From positions 64,293 to 128,292 of the forward strand of contig NZ_CP046190.1 in NCBI RefSeq assembly GCF_012568445.1: a DNA stretch of 64,000 nucleotides, given 5' to 3'. This document shows, one piece after another, positions 26,348 to 37,231 of the stretch. A program made the translations under genes and the position numbers. The notes under the pieces are model-generated. The model made no database searches and was not told the DNA's origin. It was given only the letters and a program-made list of their open reading frames with translations. Every line of letters starts with the position of its first letter. The first letter of the stretch is position 1. The DNA is from Enterobacteriaceae endosymbiont of Donacia vulgaris. GTDB lineage: Bacteria > Pseudomonadota > Gammaproteobacteria > Enterobacterales > Enterobacteriaceae.

Positions 26348-27397
26348 TTAAATTTTAAAAAGAAAATGAATAATATCACCATCTTTTATTATATAATTTT
26401 TACCTTCTATTTTCATTTTACCAAATAATTTTGCTTTTACTTGACTTTTATAAAAAATAAAATCTTTATAATGAATTATTTGTGCTCTAATAAAACCTTT
26501 TTGAATATCACTATGAATTTTTTTAGCAGCAAAGAATGTTGTAGTTCCTTTTAAAATACTCCATGATCTTGTTTCTTTAATACCTACTGTATAAAAAGTA
26601 TGTAAATTTAATAACTTAAAACTATAAACTATTATTTTTTTTAAATCATAATTATCATTTATTGATAATAATTTTTGTTTTTCATAAAGTTTTTTAATAC
26701 ATATTTTTAAAATTAAGTAATTTTGATTAAGAATATTTATTTCTTCTGAAAATAAATTATTTTTAGTAAGAAGACTATTTTTATCTATATTAGCAATAAT
26801 AATTATTGGTTTAATTGTTAATAATTTTAAACTTTTTAAAAATTTTATTTCTTCTATATTTAATTTTAATAAATTTAGTAATTTACCCTTTTTTAAATGA
26901 TTCAAACAAATATTAAATAAATATTCCCATTTATTAAAATATTTTTCATTATTTTTTTTAGAAATATTTTTTTGTAATTTATATAATAAATTTATATCAA
27001 ATTGAATAATTTCATTATTTATAATATGAACATCTTTTAATGGATTATATGATAAATTTAATATATTTTTATTTTTAAAACAACGTACTACATGAATAAT
27101 AGCATTAACTTCTGATATATTATGTAAAAATTGATTTCCTAATCCTTCTCCTTTTGAGGCTCCTTTTATTAAACCAGCAATATCTACAAAAGTTATTGTT
27201 GATTGTATAGTTTTTTTAGATTTTACAATTTTAGATAAATAAAATAATCTATCATCAGGAACACTTACTATACTAGTATTTGGTTTTATTGTACAAAAAG
27301 GATAATTTAATGCATCTACATTAGATTTAGTTAATGCATTAAATAATGTTGATTTCCCTACATTTGGTAAACCTATAATACCACATTTTAATTCCAT
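26348..27397 (-). CDS. ychF: Ribosome-associated ATPase YchF (Obg family)
   Basis: A P-loop protein with GLPNVGKST at 9-17, DIAGLIKGASKGEGLGNQFL as the switch/G3 region, NIDK-like ANIDKN, and a C-terminal TGS domain with KIHSDIQKGFIRAQIIHYKDF. Family members prefer ATP and bind the 70S ribosome. Length 349 against 363 in E. coli. The internal helical region is degraded but the motifs stand. It is followed by pth upstream on the same strand, as in E. coli. Confidence 0.95.
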   Translation of the reverse strand: MELKCGIIGLPNVGKSTLFNALTKSNVDALNYPFCTIKPNTSIVSVPDDRLFYLSKIVKSKKTIQSTITFVDIAGLIKGASKGEGLGNQFLHNISEVNAIIHVVRCFKNKNILNLSYNPLKDVHIINNEIIQFDINLLYKLQKNISKKNNEKYFNKWEYLFNICLNHLKKGKLLNLLKLNIEEIKFLKSLKLLTIKPIIIIANIDKNSLLTKNNLFSEEINILNQNYLILKICIKKLYEKQKLLSINDNYDLKKIIVYSFKLLNLHTFYTVGIKETRSWSILKGTTTFFAAKKIHSDIQKGFIRAQIIHYKDFIFYKSQVKAKLFGKMKIEGKNYIIKDGDIIHFLFKI

Positions 27398-31117: not shown

Positions 31118-31257
31118 ATTATATAAAATGTTAATTTATTAAATATAATTTTTTATAAAAAATATTTTATATAAAAAACTGAAATTAATATTTTTAATAT
31201 ATTTAAAAGAGAAATTTTGGTATTATAATGATATATTTATTTTAATAAAAGTAAAAA

Positions 31258-32529
31258 ATGGAACAAAATAATAATTCTAAAAAAATAAATTTATCTAATA
31301 AAATCAAATTATTAGAAATAGATCATAGAATTATAGGAAAGAAGTTAAATCTATACCATTTTCAAGATAAATCTCCAGGAATGGTTTTTTGGCATAATAA
31401 TGGTTATATTATTTTTAAAGAATTAGAAAAATTTTTACGTTTAAAATTAACTGAATATAATTATTTAGAAGTAAAAACGCCTTTAATAACTGATTTTTCT
31501 ATTTGGGAAAAAACAGGACATTGGAAAATTTATAAAGAAGCTATTTTTACTACTGTTTCAGAAAATAGAAATTATTGTATTAAACCAATGAATTGTCCTG
31601 GACATATGCAAATTTTCCAACAAAAATTAAAATCTTACAGAGATTTACCTTTAAGAATTGCGGAATTTGGAATTTGTCATAGAAATGAACCATCTGGTTC
31701 TTTACTAGGATTAATGAGACTAAGAAATTTTACACAAGATGATGCTCATATTTTTTGTACAAAAAAACAAGTTATAAAAGAAATAGAAAATTGTATTCAT
31801 ATGATGTATGATATTTATCATATTTTTGGTTTTAAAAAATTTCTTGTAAAATTATCTACTAGACCAACAAATAAAATTGGTGATAATATTATTTGGGATA
31901 AAGCAGAAAAAGATTTATCTTATATTTTAAAAAAACTAAATATTAAATTTGAATATCAAAAAGGAGAAGGTGCTTTTTATGGCCCTAAAATAGAGTTTTC
32001 TTTTTTTGATTGTTTAAATAGAGAATGGCAATGTGGTACAATACAATTAGATTTTGTGTTACCTAAATATTTAAATTTATTTTATATTAATACTAAAAAT
32101 AAGCATAGTACTCCAGTAATAATTCATCGTGCAATTTTAGGTTCATTAGAAAGATTTATAGGTATTCTTATTGAAGAATTTTCTGGATATTTACCTATTT
32201 GGTTAGCTCCAGTACAAATAATAATTTTAAATATCAGTGAGAAACATAATCAATACGTTATAAAAATATTTGAAATTTTTAAAAAAAATAATTTTCGTGT
32301 TAAATATAATATAAAAAATCAAAAACTTTCATTTAAAATTAGAAAATATACCATACAACATATTCCATATATTTTAATTTGTGGAGATGAAGAAATTAAA
32401 AATAAGAATATTTCTGTAAGAGATTGTTTTGGTAAAAGTTTGGGATTTATGAAAATCCATGATATTATCAATAAAATAAAAGAAGAAATTAATAATTATT
32501 ATATTCATAGAAAAAAAGAAGAGAGGTAA
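31258..32529 (+). CDS. thrS: Threonyl-tRNA synthetase lacking the N-terminal TGS and editing domains
   Basis: Charges tRNA-Thr. The protein has only 423 residues against 642 in E. coli and starts at about E. coli residue 222. The catalytic core is complete: zinc ligands C113 (MNCPGH), H164 (DDAHIF) and the His of VIIHRAILGS, motif 2 HRNEPSGSLLGL, motif 3, then the C-terminal anticodon-binding domain. The N1 (TGS) and N2 domains, which hydrolyse mischarged Ser-tRNA-Thr and help autoregulate thrS, are absent. The 140 bases upstream are AT-only with stops, so no split N-terminal gene is adjacent. A TATAAT lies at 31224-31229. infC follows by 3 bases. Confidence 0.97.
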   Translation: MEQNNNSKKINLSNKIKLLEIDHRIIGKKLNLYHFQDKSPGMVFWHNNGYIIFKELEKFLRLKLTEYNYLEVKTPLITDFSIWEKTGHWKIYKEAIFTTVSENRNYCIKPMNCPGHMQIFQQKLKSYRDLPLRIAEFGICHRNEPSGSLLGLMRLRNFTQDDAHIFCTKKQVIKEIENCIHMMYDIYHIFGFKKFLVKLSTRPTNKIGDNIIWDKAEKDLSYILKKLNIKFEYQKGEGAFYGPKIEFSFFDCLNREWQCGTIQLDFVLPKYLNLFYINTKNKHSTPVIIHRAILGSLERFIGILIEEFSGYLPIWLAPVQIIILNISEKHNQYVIKIFEIFKKNNFRVKYNIKNQKLSFKIRKYTIQHIPYILICGDEEIKNKNISVRDCFGKSLGFMKIHDIINKIKEEINNYYIHRKKEER

Positions 32530-32532
32530 AAT

Positions 32533-33072
32533 ATTAAAATTGGAAAAAGAAATATACAATTATTACGTCCTAATAAAATTAATGAAAATATTAGAAGTAA
32601 AATTGTAAGATTAATAGGATTAAATGGTGAACAAATTGGTATAATTAATATAAAAGAAGCTTTAATTAAAGCAAAAAACACCGGATTTGATCTAGTTGAA
32701 ATTAGTCCTAATTCTGAACCTCCTGTTTGTCGAATAATGGATTATGGTAAATTTTTATATACAAAAAATAAAGCATCTAAGGAACAAAAAAAAAAACAAA
32801 AAATAATACATTTGAAAGAAATTAAATTTCGGCCAGGAACAGATACAGGAGATTATAAAGTTAAGTTACGTAACTTAATTCGTTTTTTAAAAAAAGGAGA
32901 TAAAATAAAAGTTACTTTAAGATTTAGAGGAAGAGAGATGGTTCATACAAAACTAGGATTTTCTATGTTAAATCGTATTAAAAATGATTTACAAAATTTA
33001 GCTATAGTAGAATCATTTCCATCTAAAGTTGAAAGTAGACAGATTATAATGATTTTAATTCCAAAAAAATAA
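32533..33072 (+). CDS. infC: Translation initiation factor IF-3, ATT start
   Basis: IF-3 keeps ribosomal subunits apart and checks start codons. No ATG exists until codon 69, but homology ([36 protein letters not shown]) extends in frame to an ATT at 32533, 3 bases after the thrS stop and 6 bases after a GAGAGG Shine-Dalgarno. This gives 179 residues, against 180 in E. coli, whose infC also starts with the rare AUU codon used for IF-3 autoregulation. The C-terminal domain ([20 protein letters not shown]) is intact. Confidence 0.95.
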
Positions 33073-33773: not shown

Positions 33774-34769
33774 ATGTTATCTGATGATATAGTTGCTATT
33801 GCAAAAAAAGAAAGTTATGCAGTAAAAAATATTAATGATTTAAATAAATTAAAGATTAAATATTTAGGAAAAAAAGGATACATTACAATACAATTTTTAT
33901 CAATAAAAAATTTAAATAAGAAAGAAAAAATTAAAAAAAGTATTATTTTTAATAAACAAAAAATACAAATACAAAAAATAATAATAAAACGTAAAAAAGA
34001 AATAGAATTAGTAAAAAATAATAAAGAATTTTTAAATCAAAAAATTGATATTACATTACCAGGAAAATATATTAAAATTGGTTCTGAACATCCAATAAAA
34101 AGTATAATTAGTGAAATTGAAGAATTTTTTATGAATATTGGCTTTAAAATAGTTACAGGTCCAGAAATAGAAGATGTTTATCATAATTTTGATGCATTAA
34201 ACATTTCAAAAAATCATCCAATAAGAAAAGAACAAGATACATTTTGGTTAGATAAAAATATTTTATTACGTACTCAAACTTCTAATGTACAAATTAGAAC
34301 AATGAAAAAAGAAAGACCTCCTATACGTATATTAACTTCTGGTAAAGTATATCGTAATGACTACGATAGCAGTCATACACCTATGTTTCATCAAATAGAA
34401 GGATTATTTATTGATAAAAAAGTAACTTTAACTCATCTTAAAGGAACATTAAATTTATTCCTAAACTTTTTTTTTAATAAAAAATATAAAATACGTTTTC
34501 GACCTTCTTATTTTCCTTTTACAGAACCTTCTTTAGAAGTAGATATTTTAAATCAAAATAAACAATGGATAGAAATTTTAGGAGCAGGTATGGTACATCC
34601 TAATGTATTAAAAAATATTAAAGTAAATTTTTCTAAATATTATGGATTTGCTTTTGGATTAGGAATTGAAAGATTAGCTATGTTACGTTATAACATTAAT
34701 GATATTCGTTCATTTTATGAAAATGATATACGTTTTCTTAAACAATTTAAATTTAATAATTTTATATGA
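33774..34769 (+). CDS. pheS: Phenylalanyl-tRNA synthetase, alpha subunit
   Basis: The catalytic subunit of the alpha2-beta2 PheRS. The 331-residue protein (327 in E. coli) has an N-terminal coiled coil, GSEHPIKSIISEIEEFF, motif 2 with SGKVYRNDYDSSHTPMFHQIEG, the Phe pocket FRPSYFPFTEPSLEV and motif 3 GFAFGLGIERLAMLRY. Its stop overlaps the pheT start by four bases (ATGA), so translation is probably coupled. Confidence 0.97.
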   Translation: MLSDDIVAIAKKESYAVKNINDLNKLKIKYLGKKGYITIQFLSIKNLNKKEKIKKSIIFNKQKIQIQKIIIKRKKEIELVKNNKEFLNQKIDITLPGKYIKIGSEHPIKSIISEIEEFFMNIGFKIVTGPEIEDVYHNFDALNISKNHPIRKEQDTFWLDKNILLRTQTSNVQIRTMKKERPPIRILTSGKVYRNDYDSSHTPMFHQIEGLFIDKKVTLTHLKGTLNLFLNFFFNKKYKIRFRPSYFPFTEPSLEVDILNQNKQWIEILGAGMVHPNVLKNIKVNFSKYYGFAFGLGIERLAMLRYNINDIRSFYENDIRFLKQFKFNNFI

Positions 34770-37231
34770 TAAAATTTAGTACATCATGGTTAAATGAATG
34801 GTTAAATTATGATAAAGATATCAACTCTTTATCAGAAAAAATAACAATGTTAGGATTTGAAGTAGAAAGAATTGAATATATTAAAAAAAAAACAAATTTT
34901 GATAATATTTATGTAGGAGAAATAATTAAATCTGATTTATATACAACAGATCCTAAAATTTATAAATTAAAAATTTTAATTAATAATGAGAAATTATTAA
35001 AAATATTTTCTAATATTAATATTTTTAAAAAGAAAACTAAAATTGTTTTAGCAACTAAAAATTCGTCTTTATATAAAAAATATATTAATCATCCAGAGTA
35101 TTTTTTTTTATTAAAATCAGAAGGTTTATTATGTTCTAAAAAAATTTTGAATTTATATGAAAATAATATTTTAACAAAAAATCTTATTAAACTACCTAAT
35201 AATAGTTGTAATGGCGAAGATGCAAATAAGTACTTATATATAACTGATAATATTTTACATATTAATATACCTACTAATAGGACAGATTGTTTAAGTATAT
35301 TAGGATTTACTAGAGAATTATCTGTTTTAAAAAAATTTTTTTATTTTAAAAAACCATATATTAATAATTTAAAGAAAAAATCAAAAATATATAAAATTAA
35401 TATTAATTTTGATAAGAATATTAATGATATATTATATCAATATAATTATTGTATTATTAAAAATATTAATTTAAATAAAGAAATCCCATTATTTATTAAA
35501 AATAAATTATTACAATCTAGTATTAGAATTGTATCTGAAAATCCATTATTAAATATTTATAACTATATAATTTTAGAATTAGGATATCCCATTCAATTTT
35601 ATGATTTGAATAAAATTCAAGGTAATATTTATATAGAAAATAATAAACAAAATAAAAATAATTTCTTAAATTTTGAAAATCAAAAAATTAATTTAATAAA
35701 TAATAATTATCTTTTATTAATAAAAGATAATAATAAAATAATTTCGATACCAGGAATAACACAAAATAAAAATGTAATTGTTAATTTAAAAACAAAAGAT
35801 ATTTTTATAGAATGTTTTTTTATAAAAAAAGAATATTTTAATTTTTTACTTAGTAAAAATCCTTATTTTAATAATAAAACTAATATCTATACTAGATTTC
35901 TAGACCCATATATTCAAAAAGAAGTTATAATAAGAACGGTAAATTTAATTTTAAAAATATTTGGTGGAAATAGAAGTAAAATTTATACAAATAATATTAA
36001 TAATATTAATTATATAAAAAAGAAAATTAAATTATCATTTAAACATATATATAAAATGTTAGGTTTTAATATTTTAAAAAAAGATATAATTGATATTTTA
36101 AATAAATTAGGTTTTTTAATAATAAAAAAAACAACTAATAATTACATAATTAAAATACCTAGTTGGCGTAACGATATAGAAATTGAAGAAGATTTAATAG
36201 AAGAAATTATACGGGTATATGGATATGATAAAATTCCGAGTAAAATAAAAATATATTTAATTCAAAAAAATATTTTAAATAAAAAAAAAGTAATATTAAA
36301 AAATACAAATATTAATATTAAAAATATTAAAAATATTTTAATTAATAAAGGATATCATGAAGTTATTAATTATAGTTTTATTAATCCAAAAATACAATCA
36401 ATATTATATCCAAATATAAAACATATTAAAATTAATAACCCTTTAACTAATGAAACATCAGTTATGCGTAATTCTTTATCATATGGATTAATAAATAATA
36501 TTGTTTACAATCAAAATAGACAACAAAAAAATTTACGTTTTTTCGAATATGGATTGTGTTTTTTAAAAGATTTAAAAGAAAAAATTGGTATTTCTCAAAA
36601 ATTAATGTTAGCTGGGATAACAAATGGAAATTTATATTCCGATTATTGGGGGAAAAAAAAAGAATTAATTAATTTTTATGATATTAAAGGTGATATAGAA
36701 TATATTTTTAAAGTTTTTGATCAATCTAATATAATAGAATTTCGTCCACAGCATGATAATAAAATATTACATCCATATATAAGTACATCAATATATTTAA
36801 ATAATATATGTATTGGATATTTGGGTATGTTACATCCTAATTTAATTAATTTTTTTAATATAAAATATGATACTTTTCTATTTGAAATTTTTTTTAATAA
36901 AATTATTATTAATAATAATTTCAATTTTACAAAAATCATTAATTTACCAATTAATAAAAGAGATATATCCTTTTCTATAAAACAAAATATATATTTTGTA
37001 GAAATTTTGTCTTTATTAAAAAAACTAAAATTAAAAGAAATAATAAAAATAACTTTAATTGATATATATCAAGGAAATAATATTCCTATAGGATACAAAA
37101 ATATTACTTTAAGTTTATTTATTCAACATAAAGATCATACATTAAAAGAAGAAGAAATTAACAAAATATTAAATAAATGTATTTTAGAATTAAAAAATAA
37201 ATTTCAAATTTTATTAAGAGATAACATTTAA
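34766..37231 (+). CDS. pheT: Phenylalanyl-tRNA synthetase, beta subunit, with degraded editing site
   Basis: The 821-residue beta subunit (795 in E. coli) has the N-terminal OB-fold, the B1/B5 domains (PSWRNDIEIEEDLIEEIIRVYGYDKIP), the B6/B7 core (NPLTNETSVMRNSL, VYNQNRQQ, RFFEYG) and the C-terminal anticodon-binding fold (PINKRDISFS). In the B3/B4 editing domain, gap-free alignment to E. coli anchored on LELG-P, IEC-F and DP gives Q277 for H265, Q333 for G318, N369 for T354 and K371 for A356; only E349 (E334) is kept. The synthetic part of the enzyme looks complete, but hydrolysis of mischarged Tyr-tRNA-Phe is probably lost. Confidence 0.95.
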   Translation: MIKFSTSWLNEWLNYDKDINSLSEKITMLGFEVERIEYIKKKTNFDNIYVGEIIKSDLYTTDPKIYKLKILINNEKLLKIFSNINIFKKKTKIVLATKNSSLYKKYINHPEYFFLLKSEGLLCSKKILNLYENNILTKNLIKLPNNSCNGEDANKYLYITDNILHINIPTNRTDCLSILGFTRELSVLKKFFYFKKPYINNLKKKSKIYKININFDKNINDILYQYNYCIIKNINLNKEIPLFIKNKLLQSSIRIVSENPLLNIYNYIILELGYPIQFYDLNKIQGNIYIENNKQNKNNFLNFENQKINLINNNYLLLIKDNNKIISIPGITQNKNVIVNLKTKDIFIECFFIKKEYFNFLLSKNPYFNNKTNIYTRFLDPYIQKEVIIRTVNLILKIFGGNRSKIYTNNINNINYIKKKIKLSFKHIYKMLGFNILKKDIIDILNKLGFLIIKKTTNNYIIKIPSWRNDIEIEEDLIEEIIRVYGYDKIPSKIKIYLIQKNILNKKKVILKNTNINIKNIKNILINKGYHEVINYSFINPKIQSILYPNIKHIKINNPLTNETSVMRNSLSYGLINNIVYNQNRQQKNLRFFEYGLCFLKDLKEKIGISQKLMLAGITNGNLYSDYWGKKKELINFYDIKGDIEYIFKVFDQSNIIEFRPQHDNKILHPYISTSIYLNNICIGYLGMLHPNLINFFNIKYDTFLFEIFFNKIIINNNFNFTKIINLPINKRDISFSIKQNIYFVEILSLLKKLKLKEIIKITLIDIYQGNNIPIGYKNITLSLFIQHKDHTLKEEEINKILNKCILELKNKFQILLRDNI

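Follow-up and report, generated by a model that had tools for sequence, protein, structure and literature searches.

The window, a 64,000-nucleotide stretch of contig NZ_CP046190.1 from the Enterobacteriaceae endosymbiont of Donacia vulgaris (465,742 bases on two contigs, 20% GC), carries thrS on the plus strand at 31258..32529, in the gene order prfA-prmC-thrS-infC-rpmI-rplT-pheS-pheT (names read from translations, those of thrS, pheS and pheT backed by Pfam). The ORF opens with ATG and encodes a threonyl-tRNA synthetase (ThrRS) of only 423 residues, which lacks the TGS (N1) and N2 editing domains. Pfam finds two domains and no others, the class II catalytic core, which includes the three zinc ligands (PF00587, E 3e-53; residues 97-307, 31546..32178, plus strand), and the anticodon-binding domain (PF03129, E 7e-16; residues 320-410, 32215..32487, plus strand), with no match to TGS or tRNA_SAD in the 423 residues. 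In the PDB alignment residues 19-416 pair with 240-637 of the 642-residue chain 1qf6, which we take to be full-length E. coli ThrRS. The first 18-21 residues are unaligned, and this N-terminal tail (residues 1-21, 31258..31320, plus strand), which cannot be aligned to E. coli ThrRS, varies in length across the genus. The start at about E. coli residue 222 given in the preliminary description is correct as the alignment offset of Met1, but true homology begins only at about 240-243. The best PDB matches are core constructs of 400-411 residues; 1evk, 1evl, 1fyf, 1kog and 4hwo, presumably all constructs of the E. coli ThrRS core, have the same domain set but are engineered, the natural E. coli enzyme being full length.

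Zinc ligands C334, H385 and H511 and eight further active-site positions are present in the short enzyme, and all eleven are identical in every one of the 43 aligned rows, short and full-length ThrRSs alike (12 of the 24 reed-beetle symbionts and 13 other short ThrRSs included). A compensating change among these residues is thereby ruled out, and the active site is without visible adaptation for rejecting serine. The protein has the attributes of a bacterial ThrRS, i.e. class II core, HGTP anticodon domain, zinc ligands and motif residues, and in none of the 24 genus genomes are TGS and N2 found in the same chain, as they are in the full-length bacterial enzyme. Pfam, PDB alignment and active-site residues thus agree with the initial view of an enzyme that has shed N1 and N2 and kept a complete synthetic core.

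The organism is host-restricted with a reduced genome, and its relatives are endosymbionts of reed beetles (Donaciinae), the protein matches naming symbionts of Donacia (in the relative set D. piscatrix, L032), Plateumaris, Neohaemonia and Macroplea. A short thrS is present in all 24 genus genomes searched (our own and 23 others), at 414-437 residues from the first possible start, and in the ThrRS tree (43 rows) the reed-beetle sequences, 12 of the 24 being used, form one group with support 100/99. dN/dS lies between 0.08 and 0.25 in all ten close pairs computed, indicating purifying selection. The short gene is real, old and used. The uniform occurrence in the genus disposes of the assembly error at 31118-31257 that the preliminary description had allowed for. 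Sixteen of 17 other Enterobacterales compared have ThrRS frames of 638-695 residues, the seventeenth (G037) giving only a weak, ProRS-like match. An order-wide survey of 394 genomes returned ThrRS matches in 384, and among the matches listed only our own gene (counted there as 424 residues) and that of G059 (447, at a contig end) are short, the rest having at least 639 residues. Four genomes of about 200 kb from the same order (G090, G107, G123 and G138) have no ThrRS match at E 1e-40, and at a looser cut-off their matches are weak or absent; in the two tested, G107 and G123, LeuRS was found and PheRS beta was not found at E 1e-10.

The region upstream of thrS

The gap between thrS and the upstream gene, prmC by reading, spans 31118..31257 on the plus strand and is 72-230 bp long across the genus, where no relic of N1-N2 is seen in it. 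Its fold in our genome is unremarkable (z -0.99) and an Rfam scan yielded no RNA leader, only four tRNAs, ruling out a known RNA leader for thrS. A candidate extended -10 element, TTTTGGTATTAT, is located at 31215..31226 (plus strand), 31 nt before the thrS start, and in 16 of the 24 genomes a similar candidate precedes the start by 28-34 nt, a count made after the pattern had been picked by eye from the gap sequences. The promoter scan, with 28 found against 19.3 expected by shuffling, is uninformative. On the other side of thrS, infC seemingly starts with ATT at 32533-32535, directly after the gene, as E. coli infC likewise starts with ATT, and the stretch ATTAAA after thrS recurs in most genus members.

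The E. coli thrS leader is about 160 nt long. Chain 1kog, which we take to be the ThrRS-operator complex, has the same N-deleted sequence of 401 residues as 1evk, 1evl and 1fyf. The operator is described in PMC11088916 as two hairpins recognised through their similarity to the anticodon loop of tRNA-Thr. Hairpins of this kind and the N-deleted sequence of 1kog contradict the earlier proposal, in which the thrS operator is bound by the N-terminal half, and operator binding could therefore survive the N-terminal deletion. The loss of autoregulation proposed at the same time is still probable, not for the cause then given but because no E. coli-like leader is seen. The position of the candidate -10 so close to the start, the unremarkable fold and the empty Rfam result together indicate that this control has probably been lost.

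Search for an editing domain elsewhere

As the preliminary description had advised, a stand-alone ThrRS editing domain or AlaX-like hydrolase was sought throughout the 24 genus genomes, using PF07973 (the tRNA_SAD family, which we take to include AlaX), PF04073 (YbaK/ProX) and a profile built from 12 ThrRS N1-N2 regions. Each of the 24 genomes has a single tRNA_SAD match, located in an AlaRS-sized frame, and 21 have PF04073 in ProRS-sized frames. The N1-N2 profile has no match at E ≤1 in 22 genomes, and in each of the other two it matches only one frame of AlaRS size and place. TGS matches, present in 19 genomes and not in our own, lie in minus-strand frames of 339-371 residues whose size, strand and place fit YchF; our own YchF lies at 26348-27397 (translations and Pfam). 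As a control for sensitivity, a version built from ten rows, the two insect-symbiont rows dropped, matched seven symbiont ThrRSs with changed N2 or lost N1 (G417, G048, G070, P0025, P0027, P0077 and P0037), all with E values no worse than 8e-39, and our own AlaRS at E 0.005. No second ThrRS-like frame exists in our genome except ProRS. These searches rule out a relocated gene for N1-N2, upstream or unlinked, and an AlaX or YbaK/ProX protein, there being no tRNA_SAD, N1-N2 or PF04073 protein outside the AlaRS- and ProRS-sized frames of the 24 genomes.

Ser-tRNA-Thr might nonetheless be cleared in trans, and fidelity kept, by an unrecognised protein, whether DTD-like (PF02580), archaeal ThrRS-ed-like (PF08915), of a new family or from the host. 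Archaea do divide the work between a ThrRS-cat, which likewise has no cis-editing domain, and a separate ThrRS-ed, as reported in PMC4787780. Unlike in the archaeal pair, no separate N2-type protein was found here with PF07973, the N1-N2 profile or PF04073, and the accompanying loss of editing motifs from LeuRS and PheRS (below) fits a general loss of proofreading. We consider such clearance unlikely.

Less likely still is that the short enzyme is itself selective against serine, through its active site or by pre-transfer editing, so that little mischarging occurs. Yeast mitochondrial ThrRS, a natural editing-less enzyme, hydrolyses Ser-AMP before transfer but still makes Ser-tRNA-Thr in vitro, according to PMC4267643, and it differs in being organellar and nuclear-encoded, the 460-residue chain 3ugq scoring 268 bits where the bacterial core scores about 580. 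The eleven active-site residues equal those of full-length enzymes, so no special selectivity is visible. An artefact of assembly, a wrongly read start and a decaying pseudogene can be dismissed, as the structure is the same in 24 of 24 genomes, the gap holds no relic, dN/dS is low and our genome has no other ThrRS-like frame except ProRS.

Editing sites in other synthetases and other symbionts

We surveyed editing motifs in the other synthetases of the genus (LeuRS, PheT and AlaRS from all 24 members, ProRS from 17, IleRS and ValRS from 12). The LeuRS motif TTRPDT is absent in 24 of 24, the editing domain still being present in length, and the second motif, GHDQRD, has given way to variable letters around one kept Asp; our own LeuRS (L144:668-3217, minus strand) retains HMGH and KMSKS. 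The pheT gene of the window (34766..37231, plus strand) encodes a PheRS beta subunit of 821 residues in which the B3/4 domain (residues 225-400) is present and the GGEHSG editing motif is gone, as it is in all 24 members. AlaRS retains HxxxH and CxGTH throughout, and the IleRS and ValRS motifs are retained in all 12 fetched. From ProRS the whole editing insert has been lost in two of 17, G007 and G018, whose enzymes have 403 residues against 544-584 in the other 15. The PheRS beta subunits of the same two genomes, at 705 and 709 residues, have lost about 110 residues from their N-terminal portion, and the ValRS of G002 (L237) has 845 residues, the 11 other fetched members having 924-950.

The ratio of identity in the editing region to that in the rest of the protein, calculated over 12 genomes (11 for ProRS) with domain borders set by hand, is 0.68 for LeuRS and 0.75 for ProRS, indicating relaxed constraint, and 0.88, 0.93 and 1.00 for IleRS, AlaRS and ValRS. 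For PheT it is 0.96, i.e. no relaxation, so it is the missing motif that argues for loss of PheRS editing. With its domains deleted in ThrRS and catalytic motifs gone from LeuRS and PheRS, editing is predicted to be lost in three synthetases of the genus. We are evenly divided on the fuller proposition that proofreading has been lost together for Thr, Leu and Phe and excised for Pro in two species, and is held under selection for Ala, Ile and Val.

Similar ThrRSs are evident in other insect symbionts. A length-limited protein search scored 8,000 candidates, and among the matches listed (the best 120 of 7,952) ThrRSs of 401-414 residues without tRNA_SAD occur on contigs of at least 450 kb in four Blochmannia, Ca. 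Providencia siddallii, Schneideria, Purcelliella and one Buchnera, and on shorter contigs in Lightella. Like the reed-beetle enzymes these consist of core and anticodon domain only, and the 13 non-reed-beetle short ThrRSs that were aligned begin no further than about 30 residues from the core. They belong to other lineages, and the tree, in which deep symbiont branches are poorly supported, leaves independent deletions undecided: a least-change count gives five state changes, of which well-supported branches force only one. On this evidence loss of the ThrRS editing half is genus-wide and appears to recur in insect symbionts. A short frame of Spirabiliibacterium mucosae (L037) was dropped because N2 is present in another frame; L071 (432 residues, from a MAG) and L096 gave no N2 match.

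Seven of seven reduced genomes compared (G417, G048, G070, G338, G086, G066 and G176) have at least one change among ThrRS residues H73, H77, C182 and H186, which in G176 is C182 to S and no other. Thr, Leu and Phe editing motifs are all lost in G417 (a Buchnera with a ThrRS of 655 residues), G048 and G070 and all damaged in G338; the 5-Mb genome G024 retains all three. One Buchnera and two genomes of symbiont size, at about 0.3 Mb, have the same trio in a degenerate state. Three Buchnera ThrRSs of 591-593 residues (P0025, P0027 and P0077) and that of Westeberhardia (P0037), the four together spanning 580-593, have no TGS listed and keep an N2-like region. Such N1-less enzymes are a possible intermediate before full loss, and ThrRS lengths across symbionts look like stages of erosion.

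Proposed loss of proofreading

Taken as a whole, we regard it as probable that the part of thrS coding for N1 and N2 was deleted in an ancestor of the reed-beetle symbionts, leaving a working ThrRS without cis-editing as one element of a selective proofreading decay. One ancestral deletion would explain the whole genus. Translation would now begin just before the catalytic core, and the product would activate threonine via the zinc site and charge two tRNA-Thr species; two are found, with anticodons GGT and TGT. Deletion of the editing domain from a bacterial ThrRS is reported to leave activation intact and to weaken charging (PMC4267643). Without N2 the enzyme would not hydrolyse Ser-tRNA-Thr in cis, so we infer from the sequence that its editing activity has been lost. 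Accuracy would then rest on the active site, on pre-transfer hydrolysis of Ser-AMP if there is any, and possibly on a Thr:Ser ratio that favours threonine; that a high ratio limits errors is conjecture. Ser-for-Thr errors would probably rise in the cell and protein synthesis become less accurate. The decay as we envisage it would have removed proofreading from ThrRS, LeuRS and PheRS, would be removing it from ProRS and would spare AlaRS, IleRS and ValRS.

It is established that host-restricted organisms can lose synthetase editing (PMC7373986, PMC10057733, PMC11020763, PMC4014445), and the cases these reviews draw from Li 2011 and Melnikov 2018 likewise combine proofreading loss in ThrRS, LeuRS and PheRS with a reduced genome. 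In Mycoplasma, as the reviews describe it, the ThrRS editing domain is mutated, and for other host-restricted organisms they describe whole domains missing with ThrRS unnamed; here the ThrRS domain is excised, in a mutualist, and three functions are predicted to be lost together. One of the reviews, in its discussion of Mycoplasma, states that no case is known in which as many as three editing functions have disappeared. Another, citing Melnikov 2018, states that editing is gone from many synthetases in most host-restricted bacteria, so the triple loss should not be stressed as novel. The kind of loss is already known, and it is the joint loss in three enzymes that is worth following. Among the titles and abstract openings listed none reports a truncated ThrRS in insect symbionts, which is weak evidence of absence. 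The short symbiont enzymes contradict the statement in PMC4267643 that bacterial ThrRSs contain N2.

If the predicted losses are true, the joint loss for Thr, Leu and Phe would exceed the limit of two seen in Mycoplasma by the review that discusses that genus, and the reed-beetle symbionts would be mutualists with a statistical proteome throughout the clade. In a group of 24 genomes ThrRS proofreading has been physically removed and the lineage has persisted, and other insect symbionts offer similar cases. The amount and order of proofreading loss a cell tolerates become testable. The kept set (Ala, Ile and Val) and the lost set (Thr, Leu and Phe) are concrete predictions that mass spectrometry and other symbionts can be used to check. 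Shrinking genomes may lose their proofreading functions in a predictable order.
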